Assembly: GCA_020722645.1 (NCBI GenBank)
Contig: DYKL01000005.1
Coordinates: forward strand, 1 to 32,151
Length of the DNA stretch: 32,151 bases
Direction of reading: 5' to 3'
From: Acetofilamentum sp.
Lineage (GTDB): Bacteria > Bacteroidota > Bacteroidia > Bacteroidales > JAFGUD01
Position 1 is the first letter of the stretch; every line of letters starts with the position of its first letter. Below, piece after piece: positions 11,343 to 25,571 of the stretch. Position numbers and translations under genes: made by a program. The notes below the pieces were generated by a model. The model was not told the DNA's origin. It saw only the letters and a list, made by a program, of their open reading frames with translations, and did no database searches.

Positions 11343-11485
11343 AAGTTTATGTTGATTTTAATTTATTTTTTTTAGGTGGAATTTGGACTAAATTAAAACA
11401 CACGCAAAATCCTATAACTTATTCTTACCTTTTTTAAAATTTTCTAAATATGTTTTTAAATATTTTTGGATAATATTGTTCTAAA

Positions 11486-11493
11486 TACATTTG
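11486..11493 (+). promoter_or_regulatory. Bacteroidota-type -7 box (TACATTTG) upstream of the Hyf/Ehr-like operon
   Basis: TACATTTG at 11486-11493, with TATTTTTG at 11461-11468 also fitting TAnnTTTG; both precede ATG 11544. Confidence 0.45.
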
Positions 11494-11543
11494 CCGCCAT
11501 TTTTAATTTTTTCTTATTTATTATTAAATATAACATAAACAAA

Positions 11544-13526
11544 ATGAAAGAACTTTTTATTATATTAATATCATTATTAAGCTTAAGTATTTTTATTGTT
11601 CCGAAAAAAATGCAATACTTTTTAATGCTGATTAGCCAGATAATTCTAATGCTTTTTTCCGGTTATTTTGCTTTTTTAGCTTTTAATGGTAATCAAACGA
11701 TACAAATCAAACTTTTCAGTATTCTGGGGAATGATGTAAACATTATTGCAGACAGCCTTTCTGCATTTTTTATATTTGTCATCAATTTAACCGTTTTTAC
11801 AGGTTCTTTATATGCTTATGGCTATTTAAAACCTTATCGTGATGTTAAAACAAAAACTGAAATGGCTTGGCATTATTTCAATTTTCTGCTTTTGCATATT
11901 TCAATGTTAATGGTTGTTGTTTTACGTGAAGGTATTAGCTTTTTGTTTTTTTGGGAATTAATGTCGGTATCTACATTTTTTCTTATTCTTTTTGATTCAG
12001 AAAGCCAAGAAAATAAAAAAGCAGGTATTAAATTTTTAATTCAAATGCACATTGCTTTTTTTATACTTATTGCCACTTTTTTAATAATTAGTCTAAAAAC
12101 AAACCAAAGTATTGGCTTTGATAGTTTAACAGCCTATTTTAACACCTTTCCTGTTTTTCCTTTATTTTTAATGTTTTTTATAGGATTTGGAATTAAAGCA
12201 GGTTTTATACCACTGCATACTTGGTTACCACACGCACATCCGGCTGCTCCTTCTCACATTTCGGGTGTTATGAGCGGTGTTATGATTAAAATGGGGATTT
12301 ATGGAATTTTGAGAGTTATAACCTATATTCACACAAATCTTTTATCAATTGGTGTTTTAATACTCATTATTTCTATATATTCAGGTATTATCGGTGTTAT
12401 TATTGCTATTGTTCAACACGATTTTAAAAAATTATTAGCTTATCACAGTATCGAAAACATTGGAATAATTGGAATAGGAATAGGATTTGGTGTCATAGGC
12501 ATTGCTGTAAATAACCCGATATTGGCTTGTCTGGGATTTGCAGGCGGCTTATTGCACATTCTTAATCATTCACTTTTCAAATCTTTGCTTTTTTATTCTG
12601 CCGGTAGTGTTTACCAACAAACTCACACAAGAAATATTGAACAATTAGGCGGTTTAGGTAAAAAAATGCCAGCAACAGCATTATTTTTCCTTATCGGTGC
12701 TGCTGCTATTTCAGGTTTACCTCCTTTTAATGGTTTTATTTCCGAATTTCTAATTTACGGCGGATTATTCAAATCTTTATCTAATAATAACTTTATATTT
12801 ACTTTTACACTTTTAAGCGGCATTATTGCATTAGTAATTATTGGGGGTTTAGCTGTTTTTTGTTTTACTAAAGTATTCAGCATAATTTTTCTGGGTAATG
12901 CAAGAAGTAAAGACACTGAAAAAGCATCTGAAGTTAAAAAAATTATGCTTTTACCTAAATTAATTATTACTCTTGTTATTGTTTTTATAGGCTTTTTCCC
13001 GTTTTTAATTTTAAAACCTCTTTCTATATTAACAGGAACTTTTATTGAAAACACTTCTTTTTTATTCAATATCGAAGGTATTATGACGAATATTTCAATA
13101 ACAGTTGGCATTCTTGTAGTTTTAATTGCAATTTTATGGTTTATAAAGAAACAATTTTATAAAAAACAATCAAAAACAATTGAAACAACCTGGGGTTGCG
13201 GATATACGGGTGCTAATCCTGCTGTTCATCAATACACAGCTACTTCTTATGCTAATTATATTGTCAGAAAAGCAAAATATATTGTTGGGGTCAAAAAACA
13301 CTTCAAACCTATCGAAAAAGATGATATTTTCCCCGAAAAAACTGAATTTGAGACACATAGCTCTGATGTATTCGAGGAAAAAACAATTTTGAAACCTGTT
13401 AATAAAATATTAAATTTTCTTGAAAAAATTGCAGTATTTCAAACCGGAAATATTCAGCATTACCTTTTATACGCATTGTTTTTTATTTTTCTTATTTCAA
13501 TTTTAACAATACTAAAAATTATATAA
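11544..13526 (+). CDS. HyfB-like proton-conducting membrane subunit (NuoL/MrpA-type antiporter family)
   Basis: FFWELMSVSTFFLIL; PLHTWLPHAHPAAPSHISGVMSGVMIKMGIYGILRV; HILNHSLFKSLLFYSAGSV; hydrophilic C-terminal region TWGCGYTGANPAVHQYTATSYANY typical of HyfB. ATG 11544 preferred over TTG 11466. Confidence 0.9.
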   Translation: MKELFIILISLLSLSIFIVPKKMQYFLMLISQIILMLFSGYFAFLAFNGNQTIQIKLFSILGNDVNIIADSLSAFFIFVINLTVFTGSLYAYGYLKPYRDVKTKTEMAWHYFNFLLLHISMLMVVVLREGISFLFFWELMSVSTFFLILFDSESQENKKAGIKFLIQMHIAFFILIATFLIISLKTNQSIGFDSLTAYFNTFPVFPLFLMFFIGFGIKAGFIPLHTWLPHAHPAAPSHISGVMSGVMIKMGIYGILRVITYIHTNLLSIGVLILIISIYSGIIGVIIAIVQHDFKKLLAYHSIENIGIIGIGIGFGVIGIAVNNPILACLGFAGGLLHILNHSLFKSLLFYSAGSVYQQTHTRNIEQLGGLGKKMPATALFFLIGAAAISGLPPFNGFISEFLIYGGLFKSLSNNNFIFTFTLLSGIIALVIIGGLAVFCFTKVFSIIFLGNARSKDTEKASEVKKIMLLPKLIITLVIVFIGFFPFLILKPLSILTGTFIENTSFLFNIEGIMTNISITVGILVVLIAILWFIKKQFYKKQSKTIETTWGCGYTGANPAVHQYTATSYANYIVRKAKYIVGVKKHFKPIEKDDIFPEKTEFETHSSDVFEEKTILKPVNKILNFLEKIAVFQTGNIQHYLLYALFFIFLISILTILKII

Positions 13527-13527
13527 A

Positions 13528-14442
13528 ATGGGCATTAGCATAATTTTAATAATAATTACCGCATTGTTGTTTCCCGGAATTGTAACTTTTGCCAAAACAA
13601 AAATTGTAGGTAGAAAAGGTCCAAAAATTATTCAACCTATTTACGACCTTTTTAAACTTTTTAAAAAAAGGAATGTTTATAGTCAGACAAGCGGAATTAT
13701 TTTTCAAATTGCTCCGATTATATACTTTGCAACTGTTTTTTTAGCCGCATTTTTTATACCGATTGGCAATTACAAAGCAATCATATCTTTTAACGGCGAT
13801 TTTGTTTTATTTGCATATTTACTCGGATTCGGAAGATTTATGATGATTCTTGCCGCTATGGACACAGGCAGCGGCTTCGAAGGTATGGGGGCTAATAGAG
13901 AAGCTTTTTATTCTTTACTTGCTGAACCAGCATTTTTTATTATTTTTTCCTCGGTTGCACTAATGACCGGACATACTTCTTTTTACGATATTTTTAATAA
14001 TTTGCATATAGAAACTGCTTTGTCTTATTTTGTGGCAGCTTTATCAATTTATATTTTATTTTGGGTTTCAATGGTAGAAAACAGCCGAATGCCGGTTGAT
14101 GACCCCAAAACTCACCTCGAATTAACTATGGTTCACGAAGTTATGGTGCTTGACCACAGCGGATTTGAGCTTGCTTTGATTCAGCTTGCAGGTGGTCTGA
14201 AATTTGCAATTTTTGGAACTTTGATTTATAATTTTATTCTGCCTATTCAAAATAATTTTTTAGCTAATTTAATTTTGTTTCCTATTGTTATACTGATTTA
14301 CGCCCTTTTAGTTGCTGTTTCTGAATCTTATAAAGCAAGAAATAAAATGCAAAAAAATGCTCAATGGATAATTACTTTGTCAGCTATTTCAATTGTTGTT
14401 TTTTTATCTGTTTTAATAATAACCGAAAAAATAATTTTTTAA
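13528..14442 (+). CDS. HyfC/NuoH-like membrane subunit
   Basis: GRKGPKIIQPIYDLFKLFKK; FGRFMMILAAMDTGSGFEGMGANREAFYSLLAEPAFF; VENSRMPVDDPKTHLELTMVHEVMVLDHSG. Confidence 0.92.
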   Translation: MGISIILIIITALLFPGIVTFAKTKIVGRKGPKIIQPIYDLFKLFKKRNVYSQTSGIIFQIAPIIYFATVFLAAFFIPIGNYKAIISFNGDFVLFAYLLGFGRFMMILAAMDTGSGFEGMGANREAFYSLLAEPAFFIIFSSVALMTGHTSFYDIFNNLHIETALSYFVAALSIYILFWVSMVENSRMPVDDPKTHLELTMVHEVMVLDHSGFELALIQLAGGLKFAIFGTLIYNFILPIQNNFLANLILFPIVILIYALLVAVSESYKARNKMQKNAQWIITLSAISIVVFLSVLIITEKIIF

Positions 14443-14443
14443 A

Positions 14444-15073
14444 ATGAACCTAATACTTCTTATAATTTTAATGGCATCTCTTGTCTATTTTTTTCTGACC
14501 GAAAGAACTTCTAATTATGTAAAAATTTTGACATTACAAGGGACTTTACTTTTTGCAATAGCATTGATTAACTTAATTGACATCAGTACGCTTGCATTAA
14601 TTTTAATTCTACTTGAAACAATTATAATAAAAGCTATTATCGTTCCTCAATTCTTAAACCAATTAAGACGAACAAATAACTTGAGGCGTGTTGCTCAAAG
14701 TCAGGTTGCTGTTTTTTATTCAATTATTTTAATTGTCTCTATTATAATTATCAGTTTTTTTGCTGCATATTACGTTAAAAATCAATATATTCAATTAAGT
14801 TTTTTTACTGTTTCAATTTCCACGGTTTTAGGAGGAATCTATTTTATTATAATTCACAAAAATCTTTTTAATCACATAGTAGGTTTTTTGATTATTGAAA
14901 ATGGTGCTTTTTTATTGTCGCTTGCTGTTGGCGGCGAATTTCCTTTTTTGGTCAGTATGGCTGTTTTGATAGATATTCTTATGGCTGTGCTTATAATTGG
15001 TGTTTTTGTTAATAAAATAGGCAGCACTTTTGGAGATATGTCTATTTCAAGTTTAAATAAAATAAAAGATTGA
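14444..15073 (+). CDS. HyfE-like (NuoK-like) hydrogenase-4 component E family membrane subunit
   Basis: LETIIIKAIIVPQFLNQL; VGFLIIENGAFLLSLAVGGEFPFLVSMAVLIDILMAVLIIGVFVNKI; position between HyfC-like and HyfF-like genes. Confidence 0.85.
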   Translation: MNLILLIILMASLVYFFLTERTSNYVKILTLQGTLLFAIALINLIDISTLALILILLETIIIKAIIVPQFLNQLRRTNNLRRVAQSQVAVFYSIILIVSIIIISFFAAYYVKNQYIQLSFFTVSISTVLGGIYFIIIHKNLFNHIVGFLIIENGAFLLSLAVGGEFPFLVSMAVLIDILMAVLIIGVFVNKIGSTFGDMSISSLNKIKD

Positions 15074-16500
15074 TGATGATAATATTATATTTTCTGATAG
15101 TATCGGCAGTTTTTGCTTCTCTTTCGTTTTTTATTAAGAACAAAATTCTGCATATTATAATTGCTGTTTTTTACAGTTTTATGCAAATAGGGCTGACTAT
15201 TTATGCTTATTTGAATATCAACAATTTTGATTCTGTTTATTTTAAATTTGACAGCTTATCTATTTTATTGAACGGACTGTTAAATATCATTCTGATTCCT
15301 GTTTTATTTCACAGCAAATATTATATAGAAAGACACGTTGCTACAATTAAAAACAGGGGACGATTTATAACTATGATAATAATTCTCTCTTCTGCTTTGA
15401 GTAGTATCTATTTTACCGACAATGTCGTTCTTGTTTGGGTATGTTTGGAAATCACAACCATTTGCGTTACATTTTTGATTTATCACGAAAGATACATCGC
15501 TGCATTAGAAGCCGCTTGGAAGTATTTGTTTATTTCATCGTTCGGAATTACCATTGCCTTTTTGGGTATATTATTTTTATCAGTTCAAGGTAACAATGCT
15601 AACGAAGTTTCTCTTTCTTTTACTCATCTGAACTCAATTGCACATAATATTGACCCGTTATTTTTAAAAATAGCCTTTTTATTGTTAATAACAGGTTACA
15701 GTATAAAAATCAACGTTTTCCCTTTGTATGCTGCCACTATTGATGCCAAAACGACTGCTCCTTTTGCAGTAAATGCAATAACATCTACTGCTTTAATTAA
15801 CGGAGGCTTTATTGCAGTTTTCCGAATTTATGCAATTATTTCAAAAACAGATTCTTTCAAATGGGTTCAAAATATTTTGTTTATTGTTGGGATAATAAGC
15901 TTGTTTATTGTTAGCATTCAATTATTTAAGGTAAGAAGATTTAAAAGAATGTTTGCTTTTTCAAGTATGGAGCATCTTGCGTTAATTTTTATTGCAATTT
16001 CATTAGGAAAAATAGGCTTATATGCGGCTATGTTGCATTTAGTATTTCATACACTTTCAAAAACAGGTGTATTTTTACATTTTGGTCAAATCAGGGCTTT
16101 TTTTCAAAGCGCGTGGATTAAAGATACAGGTGATTATTTCAAAAAAAACGGATTTAGTGCATTAGTTTATATTTTTAGTATTTTAACTATTACTGCTATT
16201 CCTCCTTCGGGTATGTTTGTCAGCGAATTTCTGATATTTAAAGCACTTTTTGAAACAAAACAATACATAACAGCTGTATTGATAATTATTCTTCTGACAA
16301 TTATTGTTTATTTGATATTTAAACATTCTATGCAATTATTATTTGGAAAATTACCCGAAAATTTCAAACAGGAAAATGCAATTGTATCCAAATTTGAGCC
16401 GGTTTCACAGATTTTTTTATTTTCATTAGTAATTTATTTGGCATATTTTCCGCCTGAATTTTTTACTGAACTTATTAAATCTGTTTTACAAATTTTTTAA
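15070..16500 (+). CDS. HyfF-like proton-conducting membrane subunit (NuoN/M-type)
   Basis: SKYYIERH; VWVCLEITTICVTFLIYHE; GYSIKINVFPLYAATIDAKTTAPFAVNAITSTALI; MLHLVFHTLSKTGVFLHFGQI. 4-bp ATGA overlap with the upstream gene. Confidence 0.9.
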   Translation: MMMIILYFLIVSAVFASLSFFIKNKILHIIIAVFYSFMQIGLTIYAYLNINNFDSVYFKFDSLSILLNGLLNIILIPVLFHSKYYIERHVATIKNRGRFITMIIILSSALSSIYFTDNVVLVWVCLEITTICVTFLIYHERYIAALEAAWKYLFISSFGITIAFLGILFLSVQGNNANEVSLSFTHLNSIAHNIDPLFLKIAFLLLITGYSIKINVFPLYAATIDAKTTAPFAVNAITSTALINGGFIAVFRIYAIISKTDSFKWVQNILFIVGIISLFIVSIQLFKVRRFKRMFAFSSMEHLALIFIAISLGKIGLYAAMLHLVFHTLSKTGVFLHFGQIRAFFQSAWIKDTGDYFKKNGFSALVYIFSILTITAIPPSGMFVSEFLIFKALFETKQYITAVLIIILLTIIVYLIFKHSMQLLFGKLPENFKQENAIVSKFEPVSQIFLFSLVIYLAYFPPEFFTELIKSVLQIF

Positions 16501-16521
16501 TTAATTGTTATATCAGAAACT

Positions 16522-18033
16522 ATGAACAATCTTTGTAAAATAAAAAATAACAACTCAATTTCTTTAAATTCGATACCTGTTTATAAATATTCCGATTTTT
16601 TTAGTAAAGTTGTAGATTTAATGGGTGATGATAACAAACATATTGTCAATTACTTTGCTATACCTGATAAAAATATATTTCGATTTATAGCTTTAATTGC
16701 CGATGATTCAAACAGCGACATAATTATTTTATCTCATATTTTAGAAGAAAATGATAAGAAAGAGTTAGCAGCATTAACCCCAAAAATTAACGCATTACAC
16801 ATATTTGAAAGAGAAATATTTGAAAACTACGGTATTAATTTTATCGGACATCCTTGGTTAAAACCGGTTCGTTTTCCAAAAAATCGCTACAACAAAGAAC
16901 TTCAAATTAACGATTATCCATTCTACAAAATTAACAGCAGTGAGCTGCACGAAGTAGGCGTAGGACCTATACACGCAGGCATTATAGAACCCGGACATTT
17001 CAGATTTATTTGTAACGGTGAAGATGTATTACATCTCGAAATTCAATTAGGCTGGCAACATAGAGGCATTGAAAAGCTAATGCTTGAAAAAAAACAACTT
17101 TTGCAACGAACAATTTTATCTGAATCAATTGCCGGTGATACTTCTGTCGGACATAGCCTTGCTTTTGCTCAAGTTATGGAAACTCTGGCTCAAATTGAGG
17201 TCAGCGAACAACTTAAAATTGAACGCTCATTAGCATTAGAATTAGAAAGAATAGCAATTCACGTAGGAGATATTTCTGCTCTTTGCACTGATGTTGCATA
17301 TAATCTTGGTGCAAATATTTTTGGTATTTTAAGAACTGGCATTATAAATTTCACACAATCCTGGTGCGGAAATCGCCTGGGTAAAAGTATGATACGTGTT
17401 GGCGGGATAAATCTTCCTTTCACTGAAAAACTTAAAATTTCATTATTAGATACTATCGCAAAATTTGAATTTCAATTTTTGGAATTAGCACATCATACTT
17501 ACAGGTTGCCAAGCGTAGAAAACCGCTTTGATAATATAGGAACTGTCTCGGAAAATCAAATCAGAAAAATTGGAGCAGTTGGTATGGCTGCAAGAATGGC
17601 TAATGTAAAACGCGACATCAGGCAATCTCATCCTTTTGCAGGATTTTTTAAATATCCCATAGAACCTGTTGTTTTGCCGAAGGGTGATGTTTTTTCAAGA
17701 TTTCTTTTAAGACGGAAAGAAATTAAAAGTTCAATTGCTTGGATAAAAAATATGTTTGAAAAAGAAAATTTTGATACACCTTCTGAAAAGCCCAAAACAA
17801 GCATTTCATTAATGCCACAAATGTTTGCTGTTTCGCTTACAGAAGGTTGGAGAGGCGAAATTTGTCATTGTGCAGTTACCGACCAAAATGGTGAAATTTG
17901 TTTTTATAAAATTAAAGACCCTTCAATGCACAACTGGAAAGCCCTTGAACTTTCGCTTCGAAATTTGGAAATATCTGATTTCCCGATAAATAACAAAAGT
18001 TATAATTTAAGTTACTGTGGTTTTGACCTTTAA
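16522..18033 (+). CDS. HyfG-like [NiFe]-hydrogenase/NuoCD-related large subunit lacking the NiFe cysteines (Ehr-type)
   Basis: NuoC-like N-terminus (EREIFENYGINFIGHPWLKPVRFP); GPIHAGIIEPGHFRF; LGWQHRGIEKL. The RxCGxC position reads SIAGDTSVGHS and the C-terminal CxxC region reads NLSYCGFDL. Confidence 0.9.
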   Translation: MNNLCKIKNNNSISLNSIPVYKYSDFFSKVVDLMGDDNKHIVNYFAIPDKNIFRFIALIADDSNSDIIILSHILEENDKKELAALTPKINALHIFEREIFENYGINFIGHPWLKPVRFPKNRYNKELQINDYPFYKINSSELHEVGVGPIHAGIIEPGHFRFICNGEDVLHLEIQLGWQHRGIEKLMLEKKQLLQRTILSESIAGDTSVGHSLAFAQVMETLAQIEVSEQLKIERSLALELERIAIHVGDISALCTDVAYNLGANIFGILRTGIINFTQSWCGNRLGKSMIRVGGINLPFTEKLKISLLDTIAKFEFQFLELAHHTYRLPSVENRFDNIGTVSENQIRKIGAVGMAARMANVKRDIRQSHPFAGFFKYPIEPVVLPKGDVFSRFLLRRKEIKSSIAWIKNMFEKENFDTPSEKPKTSISLMPQMFAVSLTEGWRGEICHCAVTDQNGEICFYKIKDPSMHNWKALELSLRNLEISDFPINNKSYNLSYCGFDL

Positions 18034-18044
18034 AATTATCAAAA

Positions 18045-18788
18045 ATGCTCGAAGAAATAAAAATAATGATTCATAACGGGAAACAATTCATTCCTGACGT
18101 TAGAACATCAAAAGTATCAGAAACATTCAGAGGAAGACCTGTAATTACAAACGCTGTTGTTGATGAACAAAAACTTGTAGAACTTTGTCCCACTTCAGCA
18201 ATTTCATCTCATCCTTTGTCAATTGATTTAAAAAAATGTATTTTTTGCGGAGAATGTGCTTTTCGATTTCCCGAAAAAATTAAATTTACTAATGATTATA
18301 AATTATCTTCAAACAATCCCGATAATTTAATTATTAAAGAAGGTCAAACCGGACCAATTATGTTTGACCCTTCGATTGTAAGAAACGAAATTAAAAAAAT
18401 ATTTAAAAGTTCATTGAAATTAAGACAAGTATGTGCCGGTGGCGATAATTCTGCTGAATATGAGCTAAACGCTTCTGGCAATGCAAACTTTGATATGGGG
18501 CGTTTCGGAATTGAGTTTGTAGCTTCACCAAGACACGCTGACGGAATTTTAGTAACAGGACCTATCAGTGAGAATATGGCGGAAGCACTTGAAATTGCAT
18601 ATAAAGCGACTCCTGAACCAAAATTATTCATTTTATGCGGTGTTGATGCTATCAGCGGCGGTATTTTTGCCGATAGCAAAGCCCTGAACAGAAATTTTTT
18701 AAAAAAAGTAAAGGTTGATTTATACATTCCGGGCAATCCACCTCACCCGTTAAATATAATCAACGGACTTTTGAATTTTATAAACTAA
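18045..18788 (+). CDS. Ferredoxin domain fused to a NuoB/HyfI-like small subunit, N2-cluster ligands substituted
   Basis: ELCPTSAI and CIFCGEC ferredoxin motifs; RQVCAGGDNSAEYELNA; FVASPRHADGILVTGPISENM; ILCGVDAISGGIF; DLYIPGNPPHPLNIINGLL. Confidence 0.88.
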   Translation: MLEEIKIMIHNGKQFIPDVRTSKVSETFRGRPVITNAVVDEQKLVELCPTSAISSHPLSIDLKKCIFCGECAFRFPEKIKFTNDYKLSSNNPDNLIIKEGQTGPIMFDPSIVRNEIKKIFKSSLKLRQVCAGGDNSAEYELNASGNANFDMGRFGIEFVASPRHADGILVTGPISENMAEALEIAYKATPEPKLFILCGVDAISGGIFADSKALNRNFLKKVKVDLYIPGNPPHPLNIINGLLNFIN

Positions 18789-19826: not shown

Positions 19827-22800
19827 TTATTGTTTAGCAGACACAACAGCAGCACTTTTGTATATTTCAACATCACCATCCAGATTAAAAATTTTTACAA
19901 CAACGGCATATATACCAATTCTAACTTTAGCACTATTTTCATCAAGCCCGTCCCAAATCCAGAAACCTTCGGCGGCAATATACTCATCATTTACAAGTTC
20001 TCTTACTAATCTGCCGTTTTTATCAAAAATCATAACAGTTGCCAAATAGCCACCTTGCGGGAAATTGTAATGAATGTATAATTCATCATCATATCCATCA
20101 TTGTCAGGTGAAATTACTTCGGGTTCAAGCATAATTGTTCCGCTTAAATAAACACTGTCCAAATTTATGTATTGAGAATTTTTCAATCCCGGTGTAGCAA
20201 AACCTGCATTAGCAGATGCAGAATGCCAGTTTGTACTGTCTTGTGCCGGTCTGTTAAAGTCAATTCTTTCTAGTGAAACGCCACTTTGATCAGTGATAAG
20301 ACCAAAATGAAAATTTTCGTTATATCTAAATTCATCAATAATGGTGTCGTTTTCATCATAAATAACAACTGTACCTTCATCATCAGGATATGAAGGCATT
20401 GAAGATAGCTCAATAAATTTACCTCCGTAACTATAAATTCCCTGAACATTTGCTGTATCTGTTGTTATTACCAAATATTCGTTTGGCATCAGCAAGTAAT
20501 TATTTTGCGATATTTTGTAAGGACTTTCAATCAACCCCTCTTCATCTCTTTTTGCTATTCTTAAATCCAACATATTTATCGGATAAATAGAACGATTATA
20601 TAATTCAACAAAATCTACGCAACTTGTGTATGGGTTGAATAAAACTTCGTTAATAACAACATCATTAACTTTTGCTTTGTAGAAAATGAATTCAAGGACA
20701 GCATTTTCCATAATATTTCCATTAACATCTTCAATATTTGCAATGCTTAACTGATATGTCTCTCCGTCTGTAAAATCAGTGCTGAACTGCAAAAATATCA
20801 AAGAAGGATCTTCTGTTCCTCGAACAACGTAATTTGGAGTTCCTATAGAATTATCAACAGTATAATTATCTTTATTTAAACTGCTTGCATAATCAACTTC
20901 TTCTGAAAATTTTACCTGTAACTGGTTTTGATTTAAAACCCAAACATATTCGGGGTGAATTAAATAATAAGTAAAATCATAATCTGTTGCTTCAATTGTG
21001 TTTCCGCAGTCATCTGTTACATTTGTAATTTGCAAAGTAGTTGATTGTTGATCAACAAATTGAGTATCAAAAAATAAATTTACAGTTGAATAACTTGTAT
21101 CAACAAGACTGACACTCACCGGATTACCTATTCCAACGACATTGTAATTAGAAACATCTAAACCACTTGTAAAAGAAACACTTTTTGAAAACTGAACAAT
21201 AAGTCTGTTTGATGATTTTACTATCACTTTAACTAATTTAATTCCATTAGTATCGGCATTAATTTTATAAACAGAATTATCATTTCCCGGAGTACCTCCT
21301 TTAATATCAACCGAAGCAGCCCAGTTGTAAGAATTTTCACAGAAATTAAACGGGTCAATTTTTTCTAATGACCATCCACCGTCATCTTTTTCTTCATCAT
21401 TATACCAAGCGTCTGAATATCTAACGTGATAAATTAAATTATCTCTGTTATCATAAATCAACAATTCTTTGCCACTTTGAGTTAAATCAGTAGTTCCAAG
21501 AATTGGAACCGTTGTTCCGTAATCATCAATTAAAGTTGCGTTTTCTTCTGTACACATCAACAAAAAGCCATTTGATGGGATTTTTACCGATGGAAAAACT
21601 CTTTCACTTTGAGATTCCGCTTTAAATATCCAGTCCGAAAGCCAAATATCGTAAGCTGTTGTGTTAAACAGTTCAACATATTGTGCTTCCGGTAATCCTA
21701 GAGGAGCTGGATTATAATCCAACATCATTTCGTTTATCACAATATCAAAAGGTTGTGCTATATGATAAGTAAATGGAATACTTGCAGAAACCATCGTGTT
21801 TCCATTAACATCAGTCAAACCGGACATATCTAAAAGATATTCCTGATTTTCTACAAATTCCTCTGAAAAAAGTAAATGAACAATACTTGTATCATTTGCA
21901 TCTCTTGTAACTACTATAGGATTTCCGATACCATTATTTACTGAATAATTCAAATAGTTTTGAGCAGATTGTAATTCAACAGGTTCAGAAAAATACACTT
22001 TAAGTTGAGTAGATGATTTTGGTTCGACATCAACAGGATTTATCAATTCGTAGAAAAACGATAAGGTTGTGTCAGGCATCTCATTTCCACAGTAATCGTT
22101 TATGTTTGAAATAACTAATTGATTGTTGCTAAAAAGAAAATGATCTAAAAAATGGAGCCATACAATTGAATTATCTGATTCATCTACTAATATCGAAAAC
22201 GGAATATCTTCACTGTTCAATATATAATTTATTAAACTTAAAGCATAAGTAGTATCAACTGTTTCAGAATAATCAACAATAATATCGCAAGATGTTACAA
22301 GTGTAACACCTTCTATATAAGGAGCTTCTGTGTCTGGGTTAGAACCGTAAACTGAATTTACCATACAAGGAGTACCGCCGGTATAATTTTCACTTGCGTG
22401 CCAGTTATTAACCTGACTGCAAAAATTAAACGGGTCAATTCTTTCCATAGCCCAGCCACCATCGTCTTTATCTTCATCACCATACCACGTTTCAGGATCG
22501 TAAGTTATTTGTTCAACAATCTGACTGTTTTCATCACTTAAAATAATAGTTTTTCCTGTTGTTGAAGTCAAATAAGATTCATTTAGAACAGGAATTGTAG
22601 TTCCATAAGGAGAAAATAAAGATTCAGCTTCTTCTACGCAAATAACCGCATATTCACCCGAGCTAAGTTGTACATTTGGGAAAGTAAGCAAATTATTATC
22701 TCCGATTTGTAAAGTCCAGTTTGTTAAGTCTATTTCATAATTTGAAACATTCAGTATTTCAATATATTTATTTGCCGGTAGTGCGACAGGAGCAGGGTTT

Positions 22801-25571
22801 ACATCAACCATCAGTTCATTAACCACAATATCATATCTTTTAACGATATAGAATACAAATTCATAATCAGTAGATTCAATAATATTTCCGTAGATATCCT
22901 CTATGTTTTCGATATGAATGATGTATGATTGCTCATTTACAAAAGAGGATCCAAAAGTCAGATGAACAAGGTTCTTGTTTTCTTCGTCAATTAAAACAGT
23001 TAAAGGATTACCGATTGAATTATCCACAATGTAATTTGTTAATTGAACGGCTGTCGTTGAATCAATTTGCTTTGAAAAATAAATATCAATTTTCTTGTAA
23101 GAAATACATCTTATATATGAAACAGTTAAATTCTCCCAATAGAAGGTTTCATTAGCTTCAGCTATAATGTTGCCATCAATATCTTCGACATTGTTAATTG
23201 TAATTGTATATTCGGTATTTTCCTGAAAGTCAGAGATGAAAGTTAAATCTACAATTCGTTTATCAGCAGAATTTCTTAACGCAACTGAAGGATTTCCGAT
23301 AGAATTATCTACAAAGTAATTTGAAAGTGTTTCTGATGAAGTTTTATCAACGTCTTCATTAAATTCTAATCTGATATTATTTGGTGAAATAACTTCCAAA
23401 TTTGACAAAAAAGGAGGCTCTGTGTCCGGAATAGGAGGTCCTACATAAATATCATCTAACCATAAAAGAACATCTCCTGTTTTTGTATAATTATAATTCA
23501 CTCCAAAATAAGAAGCATCTGTAAATGTATTGTCAAATCCTATTCCGTAAGAAATAAGATTATTAAAACTACCATCTTCATCAATTTTAATTTCCCAATC
23601 ACCTGTAATTGATCTTGAAACAACAATAGAAATAGGTAAATTTTCATCTATATTTTTCCAATCAAAAGTAGTACTAATAATTGCTTCCGGTGTACCATTT
23701 GTAATTTTGCAGAGTTTGACCAAATCGTCTGTTCCAACTAAATTAACCCCCACAACGTAACCATTAATCGTTCCACCGTTTTGCATTTGCTGATAATCCG
23801 CATCAGCCATAATAAAAACATTCCAGTTGTTTGTAGAGGAAGGGTCAGCATAACCATATTTCACTTGAAATTGCCAAACAGAAGAGTCGGCTGTAACATC
23901 AAAACCACTCATTGCAAAACTTATTTTATCTGTGTAATTATCAGTTACATCAGTATCAAAAATATGGTGCAATGAATAAATTCCGTTTATAGGTTCAATA
24001 TCAGAAGCTGCCCAATGACCTGAATTACTTTCTGTCCATCCTACAATATTTCCATCTTCAAAATCATCATTTAAAAAATAAACAAAATCACTGCAACTGA
24101 TATCAGAAGTTGTTGCACTTGTCAATCCTGATGATTCGGCTAAAATTGAAAAATTTTCAATAACATTATATTGCAAATCAGTCCAAGTATATTCACCTGA
24201 GACTAAATTTTGTGTTAATCCTGAAGCAGAAGTTAAATTACCTGTTCCTGTATTTAAAGACAAAGTAACCGAGTTACTATAATCTTCGTCTTTATTTCCA
24301 TTTATATCTGTTGCATTTACAACCAAGCTAAAATTTTGATTTTGTTCTACAATTAATGGAGGATTAGAAAAATTTAATTTTGTAGCTTCAATAGCAACAA
24401 AAATATCTCCGCTTTGCACAATGCCTGAACCAAAAGAAGAGCCCGAAACATCGCAAACTATGTCGTTATAATCAAGTTTGAAATCAAGAGTATCATTATC
24501 ACTGATTGCAGATAAATCAGTTTTTAACCAGACGTAAAGTTGATAATTTTCGGTGGTATTATCTCCAACGTTTATAAAACCGGCTTGTGAAAAACTAATT
24601 CCGGTTGAATTTACAACACCGTCAATTCCTGTTGTTAAGTCAGTCCCAAAAAGTTTTGCACCTGCTATTACGTTTGTCCAATCTGAAATATTGTTTAAAG
24701 TTCCTTGTGAAATAGTCAGATTATTGATAATTGTCGATAAACCGTCAGATGTCCCGAGGTCTGTTAATTGAAAATCCAATACTTCTAATCCATCAGCACT
24801 ATTTACAAGAGAAGAAATTGAAACCGGTTCAACATTAGTACCGGCACTGACTTGTGAATCATCATTATTTCCAGCGGTACCCATGATTGAAACATCATCA
24901 ATCCATAGTTTTAAATCTTGTGAAGAACTATATTCATAGAAAAAACCGAAATAATTTGCAGTAATATGATCTGTATTAACAACTGAAGAACCTATTTGAA
25001 CTAAATTATCAAAACCACCATTAGTATCAATAAAAACTGTCCACTCTCCAGATGCTGTTCTTGAAACTTGAAAACCAACAATCGTTGAAGTTGTTATATT
25101 AACTTCCCAATTAAAATGAGTGTTTATAACCTCAGAGCCGCTACCAGACGTAACTTTCCAAATGCGTATTGTATCATCAGAACCAGAATAATTAACTCCT
25201 ACTGCATATCCATTAGCTGTACCGGATGTAAACATTTGGTTTGCATCTGCGTCAGAAAACAAAAAACAAGCCCAGTCATTTGAACTTGAGGGAGCATATC
25301 CGTGTTTAACCTGAAATTGCCAAGTTGTTGTTCCATTTAAAATATTAACATTTGGGAAGTTTATTGAAATTTGGTCATGCCCTGATGCTGAATTATCATA
25401 AGCATGATGTAAAGAATAAATCCCATTTAAAGGATTAATATTGCTGGCTTCCCAGTGGTCTGTTTCACTTTGACTCCAATCCGAAATATCATCATCTTCA
25501 AAATTATCGCTTAATTGAGAAAAAGCGAATAATGGGAAAAAAAAACTTAGAAGGAAAATAATTTTTTTCAT
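19827..25571 (-). CDS. Large secreted modular protein: two related LamG/jelly-roll-like domains, six SbsA-type Ig-like repeats, three lamin-tail (LTD)-like domains, FlgD-like C-terminal domain
   Basis: Signal peptide MKKIIFLLSFFFPLFAFSQ; LTD-like DIVVNELMVDVNPAP..., DIVINEMMLDYNPAP..., DVVINEVLFNPYTSC...; C-term EPEVISPDNDGYDDELYIHYNFPQGGYLATVMIFDKNGRLV. Confidence 0.9.
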   Translation of the reverse strand: MKKIIFLLSFFFPLFAFSQLSDNFEDDDISDWSQSETDHWEASNINPLNGIYSLHHAYDNSASGHDQISINFPNVNILNGTTTWQFQVKHGYAPSSSNDWACFLFSDADANQMFTSGTANGYAVGVNYSGSDDTIRIWKVTSGSGSEVINTHFNWEVNITTSTIVGFQVSRTASGEWTVFIDTNGGFDNLVQIGSSVVNTDHITANYFGFFYEYSSSQDLKLWIDDVSIMGTAGNNDDSQVSAGTNVEPVSISSLVNSADGLEVLDFQLTDLGTSDGLSTIINNLTISQGTLNNISDWTNVIAGAKLFGTDLTTGIDGVVNSTGISFSQAGFINVGDNTTENYQLYVWLKTDLSAISDNDTLDFKLDYNDIVCDVSGSSFGSGIVQSGDIFVAIEATKLNFSNPPLIVEQNQNFSLVVNATDINGNKDEDYSNSVTLSLNTGTGNLTSASGLTQNLVSGEYTWTDLQYNVIENFSILAESSGLTSATTSDISCSDFVYFLNDDFEDGNIVGWTESNSGHWAASDIEPINGIYSLHHIFDTDVTDNYTDKISFAMSGFDVTADSSVWQFQVKYGYADPSSTNNWNVFIMADADYQQMQNGGTINGYVVGVNLVGTDDLVKLCKITNGTPEAIISTTFDWKNIDENLPISIVVSRSITGDWEIKIDEDGSFNNLISYGIGFDNTFTDASYFGVNYNYTKTGDVLLWLDDIYVGPPIPDTEPPFLSNLEVISPNNIRLEFNEDVDKTSSETLSNYFVDNSIGNPSVALRNSADKRIVDLTFISDFQENTEYTITINNVEDIDGNIIAEANETFYWENLTVSYIRCISYKKIDIYFSKQIDSTTAVQLTNYIVDNSIGNPLTVLIDEENKNLVHLTFGSSFVNEQSYIIHIENIEDIYGNIIESTDYEFVFYIVKRYDIVVNELMVDVNPAPVALPANKYIEILNVSNYEIDLTNWTLQIGDNNLLTFPNVQLSSGEYAVICVEEAESLFSPYGTTIPVLNESYLTSTTGKTIILSDENSQIVEQITYDPETWYGDEDKDDGGWAMERIDPFNFCSQVNNWHASENYTGGTPCMVNSVYGSNPDTEAPYIEGVTLVTSCDIIVDYSETVDTTYALSLINYILNSEDIPFSILVDESDNSIVWLHFLDHFLFSNNQLVISNINDYCGNEMPDTTLSFFYELINPVDVEPKSSTQLKVYFSEPVELQSAQNYLNYSVNNGIGNPIVVTRDANDTSIVHLLFSEEFVENQEYLLDMSGLTDVNGNTMVSASIPFTYHIAQPFDIVINEMMLDYNPAPLGLPEAQYVELFNTTAYDIWLSDWIFKAESQSERVFPSVKIPSNGFLLMCTEENATLIDDYGTTVPILGTTDLTQSGKELLIYDNRDNLIYHVRYSDAWYNDEEKDDGGWSLEKIDPFNFCENSYNWAASVDIKGGTPGNDNSVYKINADTNGIKLVKVIVKSSNRLIVQFSKSVSFTSGLDVSNYNVVGIGNPVSVSLVDTSYSTVNLFFDTQFVDQQSTTLQITNVTDDCGNTIEATDYDFTYYLIHPEYVWVLNQNQLQVKFSEEVDYASSLNKDNYTVDNSIGTPNYVVRGTEDPSLIFLQFSTDFTDGETYQLSIANIEDVNGNIMENAVLEFIFYKAKVNDVVINEVLFNPYTSCVDFVELYNRSIYPINMLDLRIAKRDEEGLIESPYKISQNNYLLMPNEYLVITTDTANVQGIYSYGGKFIELSSMPSYPDDEGTVVIYDENDTIIDEFRYNENFHFGLITDQSGVSLERIDFNRPAQDSTNWHSASANAGFATPGLKNSQYINLDSVYLSGTIMLEPEVISPDNDGYDDELYIHYNFPQGGYLATVMIFDKNGRLVRELVNDEYIAAEGFWIWDGLDENSAKVRIGIYAVVVKIFNLDGDVEIYKSAAVVSAKQ

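Follow-up and report, generated by a model that had tools for sequence, protein, structure and literature searches.

In the window, by which we mean the whole stretch of 32,151 nucleotides analysed here, a six-gene Ehr operon (11466-18788, all genes on the + strand, order HyfB-C-E-F-G(NuoCD)-I(NuoB)-like) encodes a relative of complex I in which all four ligands of the N2-type cluster are replaced and the ferredoxin domain fused to the small subunit keeps the ligands of a single cluster. Judging from ligand patterns, of the three clusters found in relatives (outer, middle and N2) the middle one alone remains in the window's clade. In our estimate there is an even chance that this is an Ehr complex whose electron wire was dismantled under selection, and which would work as a passive or regulated proton/cation transporter. 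The comparison suggests that a relative of complex I present in many gut and sediment bacteria moves ions without electron flow.

Results

The operon and its class

The features of the locus are collected in Table 1. Homologues of HyfB, C, E, F, G and I lie in one operon, the gene order is kept across loci, and the make-up of the six-gene operon is identical in N2-less and N2-intact loci. In the large subunit of the window, which reads ESIAGDT, AGDT stands in place of a NiFe-binding CxxC, and the C-terminal CxxC is absent; therefore, the complex was assigned to the Ehr type. Ehr complexes are known to lack the NiFe site and are of unknown function (PMC6349859, PMC10284858, PMC10432482), and those of Geobacter, Nitrospira, ammonia-oxidising archaea and Melainabacteria have the same subunits, with a large subunit devoid of the NiFe CxxC (PMC6349859, PMC10284858, PMC10432482). 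The published accounts describe the loss of the NiFe site alone, whereas the window complex is also without N2 and the outer ferredoxin cluster. The features by which Ehr is recognized, a large subunit without the NiFe CxxC pairs and an operon with antiporter-like, NuoH-like, large and small subunits, were all found; the proximal (N2-type) [4Fe-4S] ligands of the sister-group Ehr were absent, a character that forms no part of the definition in the publications consulted. Cys-intact Ehr relatives, most of them with both ferredoxin clusters, were found at L055-L068, L060, L073, L081-L089 and L153. The literature on Ehr was also searched for an earlier description of N2 loss, and no mention of it, or of the loss of the outer ferredoxin cluster, was found in the open full texts covered.

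Other known systems share parts of this architecture. The membrane subunit types are common to the window complex and to E. coli FHL/hydrogenase-4 (HycG, HyfI, HyfB-G), but FHL has the NiFe site and all Fe-S clusters, whereas the window complex has neither NiFe nor N2, and its large subunit lacks the four NiFe-binding Cys that define the group 4 [NiFe] hydrogenases (FHL/Hyf/Mbh). With complex I (NuoB/PSST, NuoI) it shares the NuoB fold, the HRGxE large subunit and the antiporter subunits, but it is without the N2 and N6a sites and the NADH module and is encoded in a single six-gene operon; in place of the N2, N6a and N6b sites and the separate Nuo genes of the 11- or 14-subunit enzyme, an N6b-like site alone and six genes were found. 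Mrp and DAB2/MpsAB use ion-moving subunits of the NuoL/M/N type without redox chemistry (PMC7419157, PMC13144422) and have no NuoB/NuoD-type redox module, whereas in the window complex this module is present but stripped; the large and small redox-type subunits in the operon likewise separate it from Mrp as defined by MrpA-G without NuoB/NuoD-type subunits.

The genome of the window (3.9 Mb in 684 contigs) also encodes separate NuoB-type and NuoD-type subunits on contig C223 and one NqrB/RnfD-type protein, and no member of the NiFe hydrogenase family PF00374 was found in it. The neighbourhood comparison across loci revealed no conserved electron-donor gene adjoining the Ehr operon. In the window, the operon is adjoined by a gene on the - strand (19827-25571) for a 1914-aa secreted-looking protein with repeated domains.

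Table 1. Coordinates of the Ehr operon, of the cluster sites in its small subunit and of the second-lineage loci
Feature	Position	Strand	Remark
HyfB/NuoL-M-like antiporter subunit	11466..13526	+	686 aa ORF, Proton_antipo_M
HyfC/NuoH-like membrane anchor	13528..14442	+	NADHdh match, E 1e-30
HyfE-like subunit (NuoK-like part)	14444..15073	+	
HyfF/NuoN-like antiporter subunit	15070..16500	+	
HyfG/NuoCD-like large subunit without NiFe ligands	16522..18033	+	AGDT replaces CxxC
Small subunit, ferredoxin domain fused to HycG/NuoB domain	18045..18788	+	D134/A137/D201/N231 at N2 ligand positions
Retained ferredoxin cluster site C48, C65, C68, C71	18186..18257	+	Middle, presumably N6b-like
N2 ligand 1, Asp134	18444..18446	+	D or E in 65/65 N2-less forms of the order
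N2 ligand 2, Ala137	18453..18455	+	Variable; Cys in most relatives
N2 ligand 3, Asp201	18645..18647	+	D or E throughout N2-less forms of the window's clade
N2 ligand 4, Asn231	18735..18737	+	Invariant among N2-less forms of the window's clade
Second-lineage Ehr loci	L104:536-7752 (G014:C386); L145:1-1008 (G522:C83)		

The N2 site of the small subunit

The ORF, the frame and the coordinates of all four substitutions in the original prediction proved correct. In PDB alignments, D134, A137, D201 and N231 align with the N2/proximal-cluster Cys of MbhJ (6cfw_J, E 3e-22), FHL HycG (7z0s_G) and PSST of complex I, and Pfam Oxidored_q6 matches residues 138-244 (E 1e-19). The predicted structure of the small subunit, a single-chain model with a mean pLDDT of 94.3, has a fold that matches FHL HycG (7z0s_G, the best match), MbhJ and PSST. 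Two further Cys were considered as substitute N2 ligands and rejected, as position 130 (C130 in the window) is Ser in at least 90% of the relatives and position 198 (C198) is variable.

The loss of every N2 ligand, claimed from the window sequence, holds there for all four positions, but most relatives keep Cys at position 2. Since this position is still Cys in 49/65 N2-less forms of the order, and otherwise A, G, S, V, N or T, the invariant loss concerns three ligands and not four.

Conservation and selection

Relatives were drawn from four sets: GTDB genomes, 97 relatives, 346 genomes of the phylum and 294 genomes of the order. The pattern [D/E]-x-[D/E]-N was found in the alignment at the N2 ligand positions of 65 of the 68 distinct small subunits of this kind examined in the order, and all four Cys were kept in 3/68. 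Among the N2-less forms of the window's clade, D and E exchange at both acidic positions and the Asn is fixed. The codon analysis covered 68 N2-less small subunits, among which D134, N231 and the ferredoxin Cys were unchanging and D201 was E once; the codons of D134, D201, N231 and the ferredoxin Cys varied silently (GAT/GAC, AAT/AAC, TGT/TGC), and the median pairwise dN/dS was 0.063. Therefore, with residues fixed, codons silently varying and dN/dS low, the N2-less state is selected and is no local mutation. Conservation of the D/A/D/N set among orthologues was thus borne out for the acidic sites and the Asn, but not for the Ala, which is variable. Close orthologues with all four Cys, which would have pointed to a local mutation, were not found, as every homologue above approximately 55% identity in the sets examined was N2-less; Cys-intact homologues were confined to identities of about 46-55%, and all but three of the order came largely from elsewhere.

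Many of the relatives are metagenome-assembled genomes, and misbinning or transfer may account for the D/A/D/N forms whose titles name Delongbacteria and Marinimicrobia (L032, L037). At L032:242-9738, the end of an Ehr operon (large and small subunit) is immediately followed by a complete second Ehr operon, both N2-less, and the large and small subunits of the partial operon are 54-56% identical to those of the window. Small-subunit genes located apart from the other five genes were observed at L034:8986-9741 and L067:9001-9753; a large subunit of the same type is encoded elsewhere in the L067 genome (L097), and none of the same type was found in the L034 genome. In another genome of the window's order (G519:C368), a large and a small subunit gene lie together with no adjoining membrane genes, and this pair keeps every Fe-S ligand (L146:4275-6579).

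The ferredoxin domain

The fused ferredoxin domain, predicted with a pLDDT of about 96 (single-chain model), had been proposed to keep the Cys for one [4Fe-4S] cluster, and C48, C65, C68 and C71 are indeed present, both in the window and in every full-length N2-less form of the order. The first CxxCxxC of the domain, by contrast, is absent from all N2-less forms, a loss that the original prediction overlooked and that gives the pattern its significance. Most Cys-intact relatives that share the operon (Gastranaerophilales, Ignavibacteria, Bdellovibrionales and others) have eight ferredoxin Cys, which serve two clusters. On the ligand pattern and general knowledge of complex I, we take the outer and middle clusters to be N6a-like and N6b-like, respectively. 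The outer ferredoxin cluster is the usual electron entry point. The suggested entry of electrons into one cluster therefore stands as far as a cluster site is kept, but it is weaker than first put, with the outer cluster absent. Relatives from other phyla that carry this operon have, for the most part, retained all three clusters; therefore, both ends of the wire were severed.

When both losses were scored in 105 sequences, 75 were without N2 and the outer cluster, 26 had both, four kept N2 with the outer cluster missing or degraded, and none was without N2 alone. Therefore, the outer cluster can go first. When the two losses were compared by independent pairs, a single pair was available, too few for significance.

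Origin of the loss and a second N2-less lineage

In a small-subunit tree built without the ligand and cysteine columns, the N2-less forms of the window's kind lay on one side of a branch with a support of 71, which amounts to one change on the tree. In the concatenated large and small subunit tree, from which L027 was left out (large subunit in the wrong frame, branch length 10), a single N2-less clade was not rejected (p=0.28). Therefore, on this p value and the weak branch support, N2 was probably, though not demonstrably, lost once in the window's clade. A tree of the NuoB domain only (131 columns) gave no resolved order of losses.

Two genomes of the same order (L104 and L145) carry a second N2-less kind of Ehr. 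Its small subunits have no ferredoxin domain, carry D/C/D/D or T/E/G/D at the N2 ligand positions, and group with full support with the Cys-intact Ehr small subunits L153 and L154. A common origin with the window's kind was rejected (AU p=0.0049); therefore, N2 loss with acidic replacement happened at least twice. The L104 genes are ordered small subunit-B-C-E-F-G, and in the predicted structure of the L104 small subunit (mean pLDDT 82.6) strands and helices follow one another in a similar way. As this subunit has two Cys and the large subunit four, with no CxxC pair, and as no ferredoxin motif was found in the L104 flanks examined, the L104 complex is probably free of Fe-S clusters. The L145 operon comes after two genes that were identified by sequence as ATP synthase beta and epsilon. 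A comparison with viral contigs gave no match to the second lineage.

Pump and cavity residues

The Glu/Lys series of the antiporter subunits and the acidic residues of the NuoH-like subunit were alike in the N2-less and N2-intact groups, with few exceptions. The residues Glu164, Lys244, Lys275, Lys372 and Glu427 of the HyfB-like subunit, which are key transmembrane residues of its family, and Glu127, Lys151, Lys213, Lys331 and Glu386 of the HyfF-like subunit are conserved, Glu125, Glu133, Asp191, Asp192, Glu198 and Glu204 of the HyfC/NuoH-like subunit are invariant, and Glu58, Lys63 and Glu152 of the HyfE-like subunit are invariant among N2-less forms.

The large subunit, whose best PDB match in the case of the window is FHL 7z0s_E, also keeps its motifs with or without N2, again with few exceptions: GPIHAGIIEPGHFRF, GPxHAGxxEPGxFRF, HRGxE (HRGIE in the window), ESIAGD and the C-terminal SYCGxDL. 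The Arg of HRGxE was present in 44/44 N2-less large subunits, though there is no cluster to hold. In Yarrowia complex I, 3.7 A separate this Arg from N2, which depends on it to be held in place (PMC8042128). The Yarrowia mutant NDUFS2-R121M assembles without N2, so the architecture tolerates the loss (PMC8042128); it is, however, a laboratory mutant without quinone reduction, whereas the window's clade is N2-less naturally, widespread and under selection, and keeps the Arg.

Discussion

The original prediction saw in the window a repurposed complex. The consistent and selected loss at the N2 site, the intact fold and the one [4Fe-4S] site kept agree with this; the functions proposed with it, a different coupling, redox sensing or ion antiport, are candidates. 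Electron flow through the module is unlikely because the entry and exit clusters are gone. In the simplest account, no electron would reach the cavity of the large subunit without N2, and ion movement via the two antiporter subunits would no longer be driven by the canonical electron path; what was once the redox module would instead couple or gate the transport of ions. The two acids and the Asn at the old N2 site, beside the retained Arg of HRGxE, could mimic the charge of the cluster, their net charge of -2 being that of an oxidised four-thiolate [4Fe-4S], and might thus keep the interface fixed in a single state; the middle cluster that survives would be structural or a redox-sensing gate. 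The exchange of D and E and the kept Arg fit such a charge mimic or a salt bridge, and a bound cation fits too; both the mimicry and the Arg contact are argued from homology to complex I. Precedents exist for each half of this scheme, as assembled mitochondrial complex I without N2 cannot reduce quinone (PMC8042128) and NuoL-type subunits are used without redox chemistry in Mrp (PMC7419157) and DAB2 (PMC13144422). The broader claim that a complex I-type machine gave up electron transfer twice in one order, its redox module becoming a non-redox coupling or gating element, is put forward tentatively, at a little short of an even chance. There is a fair chance that this is the first natural complex I relative to abandon electron transfer.

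Two features speak against a redox-free transporter: the invariant middle cluster would be superfluous unless structural or regulatory, and the kept cavity residues could hint at remaining redox or ligand chemistry. One alternative is a redox-gated transporter, whose middle cluster would respond to how reduced ferredoxin or the cytoplasm is and would switch the ion path on or off accordingly, with no net electron flow. We regard this as unlikely, though it accounts for middle-cluster Cys that are invariant while both neighbouring clusters are lost, and for a ferredoxin domain predicted with such high confidence; the second lineage, however, keeps the rest of the operon without that domain, so some members of the kind can do without the cluster. 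Less probable still is a complex that remains redox-coupled, its middle cluster exchanging electrons with a substrate or a mobile cofactor bound either on the surface of the subunit or in the pocket that N2 once filled. The GPxHAG, HRGxE and AGD motifs of the cavity, kept with or without N2, and the strong constraint on D/D/N in the pocket would suit such a route, but the outer cluster for incoming electrons is lost, no donor gene accompanies the operon, and in complex I quinone no longer receives electrons once N2 is lost (PMC8042128).

About as improbable as that route, or marginally more so, is the binding of a divalent metal or monovalent cation by the D/D/N of the N2 pocket (with the Cys in most forms), in a structural, regulatory or transport role. 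Two Asp and an Asn offer oxygen ligands typical of cation sites, and the D/E exchange at both acidic positions beside a fixed Asn is what such a site would allow; against this, the Cys is dispensable (A, G, S, V, N and T also occur) and the second lineage has a different set (DCDD, TEGD). A functionless complex decaying towards loss is very improbable: several ligands are gone and in some genomes the small subunit lies apart from the operon (L034), but a pseudogene or decay was rejected as contradicted by the strong purifying selection (median dN/dS 0.063), and the pump residues are conserved and the six-gene operons intact in many families. An assembly artefact, misalignment or local mutation, suggested by the fragmented assembly of the window (684 contigs), can be dismissed on the breadth across genomes, as dozens of independent genomes, that of Ancylomarina sp. 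(L077) among them, carry the same residues, and no gap interrupts the alignment of the motifs on either side.

For complex I, the question still to be answered is how electron transfer at N2 can power the pumping of protons at distances of up to 200 A. A natural N2-less family that keeps the pump and cavity residues offers a ready test for separating the parts needed for coupling from those needed for electron transfer. If the transporter reading is true, the Ehr module runs ion transport without redox chemistry, linking Mrp/DAB-type transporters with complex I, and it would provide a first handle on the capabilities of Ehr complexes, whose function has been unknown so far.

The neighbours of some Ehr operons, namely SulP-type, HTH-EIIA and ATP synthase genes, are hints of an ion-transport context, with no proven partner among them. 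Genes for SulP-type transporters lie beside or inside Ehr operons of separate lineages (L040:476-2134, L060:9772-11376, L108:4614-6371 and L153:4940-7141), and the one in L153, which separates the large-subunit gene from the small-subunit gene, encodes a SulP-STAS-EIIA fusion. Genes resembling regulators with HTH and PTS EIIA domains were observed just upstream of N2-intact Ehr operons (L109:13014-13700, L110 and L111:2900-3568).
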